The notes under the pieces: model-generated | Databases searched by the model: none | Told to the model about the DNA's origin: nothing | Seen by the model: only the letters and a program-made list of their open reading frames with translations | Shown here: in pieces, positions 31,691 through 36,909 of the stretch | How positions within the stretch are numbered: position 1 is the first letter of the stretch | Layout of the letters: every line of letters begins with the position of its first letter | Position numbers and translations under genes: made by a program | Assembly (NCBI GenBank): GCA_017398355.1 | Contig: JAFQGD010000032.1 | Location: forward strand, 1-64,000 | Length of the DNA: 64,000 nucleotides | Reading direction: 5' to 3' | Source of the DNA: Akkermansia sp. | GTDB lineage: Bacteria > Verrucomicrobiota > Verrucomicrobiia > Verrucomicrobiales > Akkermansiaceae

Positions 31691-32728
31691 ATGAGAGCGT
31701 TTTTTTTCATCGGATGCTTACTGGGCATATGCTGTACCGGTATTTCTGAAGCACAAATGACTGCCGCCGGTTTAGACGCCGCAAAAAAACGGCACGCAGA
31801 GGCACAGAAGCGCGCCTCTACCCCCGCAGGCTTTATTTCCCCGGACCAAGAGCAGGCACGCAAAACCGCCGAAATGGTGTACAACACCTGGCGCCTGAGC
31901 ATGATTCGCGGCAGCGAACCCTCCTGGCGCAGCAGCACCACTGCAGCCCGCCAAGTAAAAGTACGCAATCTCATCATTTCCCAGCGCGGCAGCTTCCCCA
32001 GAGACTTCTTCAGCAAATTGCAGGAACCGCCCAAGTTGGAAAACTTTGCCTACGTGGGCTCCCTCTTGGGCTGCAATGGGCGCACCATGGCTTCTACCTA
32101 CATCGGCAAATTGCAACTGGGCAACGGCAAAGCCAAAGAAAATGCCTATGTGTTGGAGTTTGTCTTTGAAAACGGCAAATGGAAATTGGACCAGAGCCGC
32201 TTTTTTGATTTGAGCCAACTGCCCCAAGTACGCAAGCGCCTGCACAGCCGCGATCTGAGCGTTCTGCAGGAGCAAGACGGCTTCCAGCCCTACACCAGCA
32301 TTCCCAAAGCGCCCCCGGCATGCAAAGAGCCGGAGCTTATCGGCAAAATCTTTACAGATTGCCCCGGGCGATCCATCGATATGACCATCAATGGGGTATC
32401 CATTCATGAATTTGATGATGAACGCCGCGCAGATGTCATTTCCGGGGGGCTGAAACGCGGGCGCAACACCATCTCATACACCATCCGCGACCGCGAAGGA
32501 TTGAAACGCCCCGGCATGGGAATCGGCATTTTTGTCATGCCCGAAACACCGGGCAACACCCCCGTATGCGTGTTCGACCACCTGCTGGATGGCAACGATA
32601 AGGCCAACGGCGGCACCTTCACCTTCTTCATCGAAAACGCTCATATCGCTTCGATGAATCCTAAATACCAAGGTGAAAAACCGGCACCTTTCCACGCGGC
32701 ACCCTTGAAAGAAAAACCGAAAAAATAA
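31691..32728 (+). CDS. Secreted protein of unknown function (345 aa)
   Basis: Not recognised. The N-terminus is a Sec signal peptide (FFFIGCLLGICCTGISEA). Residues 22-60 are polar, Ala/Lys/Arg-rich and probably helical. The middle (IGKLQLGNGKAKENAYVLEFVFENGKWKLDQSRFFDLSQLP) looks like a small beta-rich module similar in outline to NTF2-like folds. The C-terminal half has a Cys pair (PPACKEPELIGKIFTDCPG), a beta-rich domain (MTINGVSIHEFDDERRADVISGGLKRGRNTISYTI), and a Lys/Pro-rich end. A TTGCCA-17-TAAGTT promoter ends ten bases before the ATG. Divergent from the esterase-like gene. Confidence 0.7.
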   Translation: MRAFFFIGCLLGICCTGISEAQMTAAGLDAAKKRHAEAQKRASTPAGFISPDQEQARKTAEMVYNTWRLSMIRGSEPSWRSSTTAARQVKVRNLIISQRGSFPRDFFSKLQEPPKLENFAYVGSLLGCNGRTMASTYIGKLQLGNGKAKENAYVLEFVFENGKWKLDQSRFFDLSQLPQVRKRLHSRDLSVLQEQDGFQPYTSIPKAPPACKEPELIGKIFTDCPGRSIDMTINGVSIHEFDDERRADVISGGLKRGRNTISYTIRDREGLKRPGMGIGIFVMPETPGNTPVCVFDHLLDGNDKANGGTFTFFIENAHIASMNPKYQGEKPAPFHAAPLKEKPKK

Positions 32729-32873: not shown

Positions 32874-33443
32874 ATGAAACTTCGTTTTCTCTTGCCCCTT
32901 CTTTGCGCGATTACGGCATGCTTTAGCAGCTGCCAAAGCCAGAAAGCATACCCCGTGTACTTCCTGACGGAAGCGCGGGGCACGGAATCAGGTTCCCGTT
33001 TCCTTATCATGTACAGGGGGCGTCCCTTCACCAAGCTCCCCATTCTTACGCTTGAGCACTTCGAAAAGTTTCGTTCATTCGTCAATCCCAATGGTTCGTA
33101 TGGTGTAGAGCTCTTCATCAAGAAAGAATGGCGCACGCGCCTTTACTTGGCCACCCAAGAAAACATCGGGTTGCTGCTTTTGCCGGTAGTCAACGGCCTT
33201 GCTTTTGAGCCCCAGCGCATTGATAGAGCCGTGACAGACGGTGAGCTCGTCATTTGGAACGGCCTCAATGGCTATGACCTGAAGCAAATTGCCAAGACCG
33301 TCACCCCCATGGTGCCGGAAATTGAAGAAAAGCGTTTCTTGGATAAAAACCCACGCCCGCTGCCGGAGAAGCCGAAGGTACCCAACCAAGCCAAGGATCA
33401 CACCGGGCGCACCTTCGGAGAACTCTTCCACTCTGCCAATTAA
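32874..33443 (+). CDS. Small lipoprotein of unknown function, first gene of the M23 operon
   Basis: 189 residues with the lipobox SSC (CFSSCQSQK). A longer in-frame start is rejected because it would put 12 polar residues before the signal. The mature part has a mixed alpha/beta pattern (YFLTEARGTESGSRFLIMYRGRPFTKLPILTLEHFEKF) and a Pro/Lys-rich C-terminal third. No family recognised. Its stop codon overlaps the peptidase start as TAATG, so the two are translationally coupled. A role in localising or regulating the peptidase is inferred from context only. Confidence 0.75.
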   Translation: MKLRFLLPLLCAITACFSSCQSQKAYPVYFLTEARGTESGSRFLIMYRGRPFTKLPILTLEHFEKFRSFVNPNGSYGVELFIKKEWRTRLYLATQENIGLLLLPVVNGLAFEPQRIDRAVTDGELVIWNGLNGYDLKQIAKTVTPMVPEIEEKRFLDKNPRPLPEKPKVPNQAKDHTGRTFGELFHSAN

Positions 33444-34495
33444 TGCGGCACATCATTCTGCAGGTATTGATACTACTGAGCAGCTTGGGTTTTGCACAAG
33501 CTGCTCAGGATTTGGTGTATCGCTTACCTACGCTCAATGATGCTCTTTTTAGGGGAGACAACAATGGGTTCTACATGTACTGCGACCGCAACTTTGAAGG
33601 TGTACACTCCCAGCCCTGGGAAGCAGGCACATACGGCATGGTGCGCAATCCTTTCCGTGCATCTAATAACCAAGTGATGTTCAGCCGTATGCATGAAGGC
33701 ATTGATGTGAAGCCCCTGCAACGCGATGCCGCCGGTGAGCCCCTTGATGAGGTTCGCCCCATTGCTCCCGGTCGGGTTGTGCATGTGAACGATAGCCCCG
33801 GCAGCAGTAACTATGGCCGCTACGTTGTTGTGCAACACCGTGTCCCCGAGGGCAAAATCTACTCCTTGTATGCTCACCTCGCCTCCGTAGCCTGCACCGT
33901 AGGGCAGCTCGTCGGCACCGGCAATGTCTTGGGAATCATGGGCCACACAGGCGTGGGGCTCGACCGCGTGCGCTCCCACCTGCACTTGGAAATTGGCCTC
34001 CTCATCAATGAGGATTATGAAAAATTTTGTCCTCCCAGCAACAAGCAAGGGATGTACAATGGTTTGAATCTCATTGGCTTCAACCCCACAGACTTGCTCA
34101 TGATGAGCAAAGATGGCGCCCCTGTCTCTCTGACCCACTACTTCAGCACCCTCAAGGAACATTACCGCGTTCGCGTTCCCCGCATTGGCACCATGAACTT
34201 CCTGAAGCGCTACCCTTTCCTTTACAAAGGGAAACGCGGACTGCGCCCCAAATCGCTCGACATCGCCTTCACCTACGCAGGAGTCCCCATTGCCTTCTAT
34301 CCGTCGGATGAGGAAGTGAGCCAGCCCACCATCATCTCCTGCAAGCCCATGCCCACCCTGCAACAAAATTGCACGGTCAACCGCGTCAAAAACAGCAGCA
34401 AGGATGCCGCGCTCACCCGCTCCGGGCTAAACTACATCAACCAATACCTTTGGCTGGAAGGTCGTTACCCCGTTCCAGATTCCACCCAACCATGA
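33443..34495 (+). CDS. Secreted M23-family (LytM-type) peptidoglycan endopeptidase
   Basis: 350 residues with a signal peptide cleaved near AQAAQ. The M23 zinc site is complete: HEGID (His84, Asp88), the catalytic His145 in YSLYAHLASV, and His179/His181 in SHLHLEIG. The domain is followed by about 150 residues of unknown fold (DLLMMSKDGAPVSLTHYFSTLKEHYRVRVPRIG onward). It should cut peptide cross-bridges in the cell wall. It overlaps the lipoprotein upstream by one base (TAATG) and the TPR gene downstream by four (ATGA). The three very probably work as one envelope module. Confidence 0.9.
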   Translation: MRHIILQVLILLSSLGFAQAAQDLVYRLPTLNDALFRGDNNGFYMYCDRNFEGVHSQPWEAGTYGMVRNPFRASNNQVMFSRMHEGIDVKPLQRDAAGEPLDEVRPIAPGRVVHVNDSPGSSNYGRYVVVQHRVPEGKIYSLYAHLASVACTVGQLVGTGNVLGIMGHTGVGLDRVRSHLHLEIGLLINEDYEKFCPPSNKQGMYNGLNLIGFNPTDLLMMSKDGAPVSLTHYFSTLKEHYRVRVPRIGTMNFLKRYPFLYKGKRGLRPKSLDIAFTYAGVPIAFYPSDEEVSQPTIISCKPMPTLQQNCTVNRVKNSSKDAALTRSGLNYINQYLWLEGRYPVPDSTQP

Positions 34496-36909
34496 AACCC
34501 GCTTTTTTTCTCTCGCTGATGTTGCTCTCCTCCTTGGCGCAGGCAGATGTTGCCCGGGCCGAACGCTTGGTGAGAAACGAGCATTATGCTGAGGCCTTGG
34601 CCGCCATACCGGCAGAAGACAAGAGTGCAGAAGCCAACTACTGGCGGGGGCAAGCGCTACTGCGCTTGGAGCGTATGGCAGAAGCCGCTATTGCATTCAA
34701 TGCCGTGCCGCAGGAATCTGCTCTCTACCCCTATGCGGCAAAAGGTACCCTCTACTGCGCTTGGCAATGCCCCTCCCTCAACTTTGTGGAAATGGTAGCA
34801 CCGCTGACGGCAAGCTCCCACCCGGCCATCTCCACCCTTGCTTTGGCCGCCCTCGCCGAACACCAGCTCCGCCACACGCGCAAGGGCGATACTTCCACCC
34901 TGGAAACACTCCGTGAGCTCGCCACGCGTGATGCTTCATTGCTTCCCTTGGTCAAACTCCTCAATCTGGAGGCTCTGCGCCGCCAAGGCAAATATGAAGA
35001 GGCCTTGCAGTATGGTCGCACGCTGGAGGAGGACAAAAGCTTCAGCTCCCTCATGAAGCAGAGAGTGCGATTGGCTCTATCGGATGTATACTACGACAAA
35101 GAAGCCTCTCTACAAGGCACAGAGCTGCAAGAGGGAGATATCGATGATGAAGGGCGAGGCGAGGAGACGCTGCTTCAATTCATCTCAGCCAATCCCAACT
35201 CCCCCCTATTGGAAGAAGCTTTCCGCCGCTTGGATGAGCGCCGGGCATTCACCAACAGCGAATACGCGTTGGAGAAATTGAGAGACTGGAGTACAGACCC
35301 GGAGCACTCCCGCCGTGCGACCTTGGCTTTGCTGGCTCTGCAGCGCTTGCGTCTCATCAAAGAGCCCAACACGCATGATGCCACCTATGCCAATACGGCG
35401 CATGCTCTCTATCCCCACGAAACGGCCACACGCGTCATCCTGCAAGAGCGCATCCGCGATTTGCTCTCCAAAGAGAACAAGGCCGAAGCAAAATTGTATC
35501 TGGACATGCTGCAGGGAGAAGATGATGCCCGCACCCGCTTCTTCCGTGCCGCCAACTTGGCAGAAACGGATAAATCCATCGCCAAGGATGAGTTCCTGCG
35601 CTGTGCAGACATCGCCCCGGCAGACGTGCGGCATTTGGCCTTGGCAAACGCCATAATCTGCGCCTATGAGGTTGGGGATGAATATACAGTACAGCAAATT
35701 CTGGATTTACCCTTGCTCCCCTCAGCCAAGCGGTTAATGCTCATCACACACGCAGAACTCATCCTCGCCAAAAACCCGGAATTAGCACGCAAGGAATTGG
35801 CAGAAGCGCAAGGCCTCTCACCCACGCCCCTGCAAGTGGCCGATATCGACTTAGCCTTGGCGCAGATGGATTTGCTGAGCGATCCCGAAAACAGCCTAAA
35901 GATTCTGGACAAATACCCGCCTGAAGCGCGCAAGGATTGGTCGGACGCACGTATCCTCCGACTCTTTGCGCTGCGCATGCAGGCCAGCGACAAGCTTGCC
36001 CAAAAACAAGAAACGACCAAAGAGGCCGCACTCGCACCATCGCTCACCTTGATGCGAGATGCACTCTCCACCGATTTGAAACCCGCCATCCGCATGGCGA
36101 TTACCACAAACCTCGCAGAAAAACTTTCCGCCGCAGGCAAACACAAGGAAGCACTTACCCTGCTGGAAAACTTGTTGGCGAACCTTGCTACCGGCGAAGA
36201 GAAGGCACGAGTCCTCATCATGGCAGCCAAGCAAGCGGCACTTCTGGGCTCCTTGCCGGCACTCAAGAAAGCCATATCCTTGTACGAAACCGCCGCCGAT
36301 ATTGACTCTCCCTATGCCAACCGTGCCAGAGCCCGCATGGCCGCCATCCTCTCCTGGATAAACCAGGGAGACAAAGCCAAGGAAATCCTGCTTGGAATTC
36401 TGCGCAGCAAAGAAAGCTTGGAAGCAGAAGACTTGGCTCACACCTACACGGTGATGGCAGATGTCTATGCCATGGACGGCACAGAAGAGGGGCAATCTGA
36501 AGCACTGATTGCCTGCGAAAACATTTGGAACTTGGAGGAAATCTCCGAGCAATGGAAAACAAGAGCTCACCTGCAACATGCCATCTATTGCAGCCGTTTC
36601 CGCATGCACGACCGCGCCTTGGCTGATTACCTGAGCATTTTGGCCACATGCCCGGCATCCGGTGCAGACCCGCACCCGGAGGAATGGTTCATTCTCTACT
36701 CTGCCGGGGCAGGAGCCGTAGCAGAGCACCTGCAATTGAAAAATTACGAAGGTGCTGCAAAATTGGCCGAACAAATTGCAGCGTGGCCACATCCCGTCGG
36801 GACACCCAGGCCGCACTCCGAAGCCTATGGCCCGCAAGCTAAGCGATTTGCCGAATGGGCAGAAAGCATCCGCAGGACCCATTATCTGAAACCCGGTACC
36901 CAACCCTAA
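34492..36909 (+). CDS. Large periplasmic TPR-repeat protein (806 aa)
   Basis: A signal peptide (FFLSLMLLSSLAQA) precedes an almost entirely alpha-helical protein with degenerate tetratricopeptide repeats, such as EHYAEALAAIPAEDKSAEANYWRGQALLRLERMAEAAIAF and later AGKHKEALTLLENLLANLATGEEKARVLIMAAKQAALLG. No catalytic motif is seen. The ATG at 34492 overlaps the peptidase stop (ATGA). In-frame codons further upstream lie inside the peptidase gene and are rejected. Probably a scaffold for envelope proteins, perhaps for the peptidase itself. Confidence 0.85.
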   Translation: MKPAFFLSLMLLSSLAQADVARAERLVRNEHYAEALAAIPAEDKSAEANYWRGQALLRLERMAEAAIAFNAVPQESALYPYAAKGTLYCAWQCPSLNFVEMVAPLTASSHPAISTLALAALAEHQLRHTRKGDTSTLETLRELATRDASLLPLVKLLNLEALRRQGKYEEALQYGRTLEEDKSFSSLMKQRVRLALSDVYYDKEASLQGTELQEGDIDDEGRGEETLLQFISANPNSPLLEEAFRRLDERRAFTNSEYALEKLRDWSTDPEHSRRATLALLALQRLRLIKEPNTHDATYANTAHALYPHETATRVILQERIRDLLSKENKAEAKLYLDMLQGEDDARTRFFRAANLAETDKSIAKDEFLRCADIAPADVRHLALANAIICAYEVGDEYTVQQILDLPLLPSAKRLMLITHAELILAKNPELARKELAEAQGLSPTPLQVADIDLALAQMDLLSDPENSLKILDKYPPEARKDWSDARILRLFALRMQASDKLAQKQETTKEAALAPSLTLMRDALSTDLKPAIRMAITTNLAEKLSAAGKHKEALTLLENLLANLATGEEKARVLIMAAKQAALLGSLPALKKAISLYETAADIDSPYANRARARMAAILSWINQGDKAKEILLGILRSKESLEAEDLAHTYTVMADVYAMDGTEEGQSEALIACENIWNLEEISEQWKTRAHLQHAIYCSRFRMHDRALADYLSILATCPASGADPHPEEWFILYSAGAGAVAEHLQLKNYEGAAKLAEQIAAWPHPVGTPRPHSEAYGPQAKRFAEWAESIRRTHYLKPGTQP

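Follow-up and report, generated by a model that had tools for sequence, protein, structure and literature searches.

The LytM/M23 endopeptidases DipM, ShyA and LytM (PF01551), the P1 head of SecDF (PF22599; PDB 3aqo, 5yhf) and the tetratricopeptide repeat (TPR) protein NlpI of E. coli are the closest described counterparts of the products of a three-gene locus in Akkermansia sp. (assembly GCA_017398355.1, contig JAFQGD010000032.1), which lies at positions 32,874 to 36,909 of the 64,000-nucleotide (nt) stretch of DNA analysed here (hereafter the window). The P1 head of SecD is described as containing a substrate-binding pocket, and it has been proposed to draw polypeptides out of the translocon (PMC11470409); NlpI is an outer-membrane lipoprotein binding several endopeptidases (PMC7049810). 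At the locus, an M23 gene adjoins a gene for a lipoprotein whose predicted fold is that of the P1 head, and this pair recurs in many families of the class Verrucomicrobiae, whereas the third gene, encoding a TPR protein, stands beside it only in Akkermansia. The features are as follows:

32874..33443, + strand: gene for a lipoprotein, by prediction a SecDF P1-head-like domain standing alone; 189 aa, ATG to TAA, lipobox-like ITAC at Cys16
33443..34495, + strand: gene for a secreted M23/LytM-type protein, from its sequence a probable zinc endopeptidase; 350 aa, ATG to TGA
34492..36909, + strand: gene for a secreted TPR protein, the Akkermansia copy of a class-wide family of ~850 aa; 805 aa, ATG to TAA
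33441..33445, + strand: TAATG stop/start overlap of the lipoprotein and M23 genes, seen in the sequence
34492..34495, + strand: ATGA stop/start overlap of the M23 and TPR genes, seen in the sequence

The three open reading frames and both overlaps had been reported in an earlier note on this DNA and are borne out by the sequence, save that the 806 residues given there for the TPR protein include the stop codon, leaving 805 aa. Judged by eye, the N-termini of all three proteins look like signal peptides, in agreement with the same note's statement that all are exported. The order lipoprotein-M23-TPR is kept on one strand in 14/14 Akkermansia genomes of a sample of the window's family and in 21/21 of a sample of the class, and is for that reason beyond chance. 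The closest named loci belong to Akkermansia metagenome-assembled genomes, with an M23 identity of 82%; the window's own genome measures 2.26 Mb.

To describe the pairing of the P1-head and M23 genes we used both samples. The family sample comprised 117 genomes, 113 of them with a strong M23 row that was used and 109 with a P1-head row; the 109 genomes with both genes had them adjacent in 102 cases (14/14 in Akkermansia, 88/95 outside it). In the class sample (188 genomes) an M23 match of any strength occurs in 161; we used 137 of these, the others having only weak M23-domain matches. P1-head places in the class are the matches listed to E 6.9e-14 (the unfiltered tally of 184/188 includes SecD itself), with two SecD-length rows left out, a 659-aa frame (G265) kept as a whole-model match beside M23 and one weak place (G279) added; the class counts given here and below hold among the matches listed. 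A first, narrower profile, with SecD-length matches counted as partners, had placed the genes side by side in 64/91 genomes with both, and was later replaced by a wider one. Of the M23 loci that appeared partnerless by that first profile, 13 were retrieved; an iterated profile finds a P1-head gene directly upstream in 8 of them (first-round E 7e-10 to 3e-6) and none in 15 control loci. With the wider profile, a free P1-head gene is found in 147 genomes, the M23 gene in 137 and both in 119, and in 96 of these 119, from 29 families, the two lie side by side on one strand; outside the window's family the proportion is 70/93. Co-occurrence of the two genes has an odds ratio of 5.4 (Fisher p 7e-6, uncorrected for kinship and for the limited length of the match lists), and genes placed on different contigs may nonetheless be neighbours across the ends of those contigs. 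At the level of the phylum, the M23 profile matches 114/213 genomes, weak matches included, and outside the class the narrower P1-head profile finds, among the matches listed, frames of SecD length (837-945 aa) and a single short one (249 aa), so that the free-standing P1 head may, on this sequence comparison, be a trait of the class. In two loci of one genus (L107, L108), genes for PHP phosphatase-like and exonuclease-like (by eye) proteins and a DUF3108 gene lie between the P1-head and M23 genes.

The identity of the lipoprotein as a P1-head-like domain is predicted from structural modelling and from its homologues. Its AF2 model (pLDDT 88.6) has the P1 head fold: in a Foldseek search the best match was 3aqo (E 5.6e-7) and all 7/7 matches at E<=0.001 were SecDF, and VIA superposed the model on 3aqo_A with Z 10.4 and 3.0 Å over 108 residues, the first row from outside the Sec machinery following at Z 3.8. 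No other family stood out in the VIA listings, an observation that excludes nothing. Searched against the PDB, the family profile found 3aqo_A at E 9.3e-5, alongside an unrelated engineered cytochrome at 6e-5 on another stretch, and 30/52 homologues from the window's family match PF22599 (SecDF_P1_head) at E<=0.1, the best at 6.7e-7. Contrary to the impression first recorded, that the lipoprotein belongs to no recognisable family, its fold is thus recognisable as that of the SecDF P1 head, from which this exported family probably derives.

The lipoprotein and SecDF are alike in predicted fold, in profile similarity and in export; unlike SecDF, members of the family consist of this domain by itself, are encoded next to a peptidase gene and, beyond a signal peptide or lipobox, show no transmembrane segment by eye. 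That the lipoprotein might itself be SecD, a long chain with several transmembrane segments, was ruled out by its 189 aa and its single N-terminal signal by eye; moreover, a separate SecD-length frame (868 aa, PF22599 at 53.3 bits) exists in the same genome, and the lipoprotein is therefore not that genome's SecD. A lipobox-like pattern, as we defined it, is present in 15/17 Akkermansia rows versus 2/35 others; being mostly confined to Akkermansia, lipidation looks, from the aligned sequences, like a later addition there.

The pair partner, the M23 protein, matches PF01551 with 52 bits (cut-off 28.7), as do 49/49 of its homologues, and residues H84, D88, H145, H179 and H181 (HxxxD, YAH and HxH) are invariant in 49/49 rows; we take these, by comparison with LytM, to be the zinc-binding and catalytic residues in the pattern of active LytM enzymes. 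The predicted model (pLDDT 93.2) superposes over residues ~22-229 on the LytM domains of DipM (Z 16.0) and ShyA (Z 15.8). The LytM domains of EnvC are also among the close folds, as would be expected if the protein were a catalytically dead, EnvC-like regulator; however, dead LytM factors lose active-site residues, and the invariance of all three motifs makes that explanation very improbable. Sharing domain, residues and fold with DipM, ShyA and LytM, the window protein differs from them in that its domain begins soon after the signal peptide and in having its own C-terminal region (~230-345), which is conserved, family-specific and barely covered by the fold matches; across 49 members this region gave no credible Pfam match, the one hit besides M23 standing at E 0.08. 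By its sequence, then, the protein is probably an intact-looking secreted zinc endopeptidase of peptidoglycan. The peptidoglycan of V. spinosum, which is called canonical, contains tri-tetra and tetra-tetra dimers (PMC12283558) and would be a fitting substrate for an M23 endopeptidase. Targeted mutagenesis is available in V. spinosum (PMC12283558).

We propose, with a probability of about one half, that the two genes encode a two-protein envelope module, made up of a secreted peptidoglycan endopeptidase and a SecD-like periplasmic partner. The analysis itself yields the genes, the predicted folds of the two proteins, the active-site residues, the conserved adjacency and the separate place of the TPR gene elsewhere; from these we infer the interactions, the activity of the enzyme, which way the changes went and the role in the cell. 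The exported M23 protein would cut peptide cross-links of the sacculus and so permit growth or division, as its family and intact active-site residues suggest. The P1-head protein would most likely bind the M23 protein, folded or unfolded, in the periplasm, and might serve as a dedicated chaperone, a targeting factor or an on/off control. In Akkermansia the lipobox would tether this partner to a membrane, and the large secreted TPR protein, whose gene lies elsewhere in relatives, would plausibly be a scaffold that, with the lipid anchor, fixes the M23 protein in place. The broader proposal, that throughout Verrucomicrobiae the polypeptide-binding head of SecD was lifted from the translocase as a dedicated M23 partner, and was later lipid-anchored and joined by a TPR scaffold in Akkermansia, is tentative and in our estimate falls somewhat short of an even chance.

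Several observations weigh against a dedicated pair. The window lipoprotein itself matches no Pfam family at E<=1, and hence lacks the PF22599 match of its homologues. The two genes lie apart in 23/119 class genomes, the M23 gene occurs without a free P1-head gene in 18 genomes and the reverse is seen in 28. Nor did any frame join the P1-head and M23 domains among the 7,223 from 295 loci, a set with many overlaps. Of 20 loci retrieved in which the P1-head gene stands away from M23, 19 were compared (one was left out); its neighbours there differ between most families and are shared only within small groups; the P1-head protein may therefore have a wider role. These last loci, together with the 28 of 147 genomes that have a P1-head gene without this M23, speak for another reading, in which an ordinary M23 gene has a mere conserved operon companion and the P1-head-like protein is a general periplasmic export chaperone; the linkage of TPR genes to uvrA, described below, shows moreover that apparently unrelated genes can stay tightly linked across families. 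Against this stands the adjacency in 96/119 genomes of 29 families, retained also where the sequences are very divergent, and we regard the companion reading as a real possibility, if one we lean against. On the observed distribution, the P1-head and M23 genes are an old pair, not an obligatory one.

The TPR gene has a different history. Pfam TPR models match the window protein only below their cut-offs; the repeats are clear in the A. muciniphila homologue and weak in the window copy. The family profile finds matches in 111/117 family genomes and 186/188 class genomes, counts in which the repeats make weak matches unspecific. For the class we compared 136 of the 186 TPR-matching genomes (those with matches listed) with all 137 M23 places, and for the family outside Akkermansia 90 of the 97 genomes with a match. 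Among the 91 class genomes with both genes, a TPR gene lies within 3 kb of M23 in 21, all of them Akkermansia; outside Akkermansia the figure is 0/70 in the class and 0/90 in the family, with both genes on one contig in 5 and 8 of these, respectively. We looked at 22 TPR loci outside Akkermansia, 12 from other orders, 9 from the window's family and 1 from the next family. In 11/12 loci from other orders (L246-L260) uvrA precedes the TPR gene on the same strand, overlapping it or separated by a gap of <=176 nt in 10 of the 11 (4-nt overlap in 5) and by 654 nt in the other, and NCBIfam confirmed UvrA in 3/3 tested neighbours. No uvrA was found at the TPR gene in the 10 loci of the window's family and the next family, nor in the sequence flanking M23 at 23 loci of Akkermansia. 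The linkage of uvrA and TPR genes in other orders of Verrucomicrobiae has no obvious reason.

From these sequence matches, the TPR protein is a member of a separate, class-wide exported family whose gene is old and independent of the pair. Since the gene stands beside the pair only in Akkermansia and mostly after uvrA in other orders, the simplest account is that it moved next to the pair in the line leading to Akkermansia. Whether the protein became a true partner of the pair there is a matter on which we incline to doubt, while keeping it as a possibility. NlpI is alike in being an envelope TPR protein linked to endopeptidases, an analogy for which no relationship is claimed; unlike NlpI, the TPR protein here has a plain signal peptide by eye and a length of ~800-930 aa, and only in Akkermansia is its gene next to that of the peptidase. 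The possibility that the window protein is itself a TPR outer-membrane lipoprotein of the NlpI type was rejected, as its N-terminus has no lipobox by eye.

The distribution of the TPR gene bears on the reading first offered for this locus, a single three-part cell-wall remodelling machine with its own regulator and scaffold. Elements of it stand, namely a probable cell-wall enzyme, a conserved gene partner, three exported proteins and a tight cluster: the genes adjoin on one strand in every Akkermansia genome of the class sample, with signal peptides by eye in all three products, and TPR proteins can act as endopeptidase adaptors elsewhere, as in the case of NlpI (PMC7049810). The three-part unit, by contrast, is not supported, given that outside Akkermansia the TPR gene was never near M23 in the genomes compared and that outside the order its neighbour is mostly uvrA; we consider such a machine improbable. 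By the earlier note's own account, separate occurrence of the genes in most relatives would refute its reading; such separation is seen for the TPR gene outside Akkermansia and not for the P1-head and M23 genes.

The stop/start overlaps, which had been read as implying fixed production ratios, do not carry that meaning. In the 21 other Akkermansia three-gene loci, where start codons are uncertain, an ATG overlaps the lipoprotein stop at the first junction in 6 loci, and the second junction keeps the ATGA form in 9; the remaining junctions have gaps of up to ~33 nt, save for two loci where the overlap is deeper. Spacing in the trio is thus tight across the 21 loci, and the exact overlaps are variable. 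UvrA is a cytoplasmic repair enzyme, and TPR homologues overlap its gene by 4 nt in the 5 loci of other families noted above; overlaps here are therefore no evidence of a complex, of joint function or of fixed ratios.

To our knowledge, little is known of how cell-wall hydrolases are controlled in Verrucomicrobiota. In the open-licence literature on Akkermansia, Verrucomicrobia or SecDF together with M23, TPR, endopeptidase or hydrolase, nothing on a P1-head/M23 pair was found, an absence that is weak; the corresponding literature on the P1 head concerns the Sec machinery, and the words M23, SecD, TPR and endopeptidase are absent from the main text of a V. spinosum essential-genome study. The M23 protein adds a member to a known family, and its partner puts a known fold in a new setting. 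If the proposal is true, the fold of the SecD head would have gained a new use in a protein that acts away from the translocase; in this medically interesting gut bacterium the pair also makes a target that is small and testable.

Genes around the trio were considered as further members. The upstream gene at 31691-32728, for a protein of 345 aa that has a signal peptide by eye and matches no Pfam family, was rejected, since among 14 named Akkermansia loci it is present only in the closest two (one contig, L093, being too short to tell). The endonuclease and hemB genes that follow the TPR gene are kept in 10/14 named loci, but on the opposite strand, and were likewise set aside. A promoter and terminator scan at the locus gave no more matches than shuffled sequences did. 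In the A. muciniphila group (L245:3176-5766 of G203; L105, L106, L139, L144), genes for an extracytoplasmic function (ECF) sigma factor, a one-helix protein of 173 aa (anti-sigma-like by eye), a PDZ protein and a protein of 122 aa that matches ParE weakly, below the cut-off, precede the trio on its own strand; beside the trio of the window or of its near relatives, these ECF-type neighbours were not seen. A sigma-factor regulon was accordingly rejected as a general feature, the ECF factor being upstream only in this group among the loci compared, and envelope-stress control of the trio is possible within the group. In a distant family, the gene for a homologue of the 122-aa protein (E ~1e-28; L280:4711-5097) shares 4 nt with that for a P1-head protein, in a genome without a full M23 of this family among the matches listed. 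In the A. muciniphila group, the TPR gene is followed by a gene for a NUDIX-PPK2 fusion protein of 447 aa (as at L105:9248-10591).

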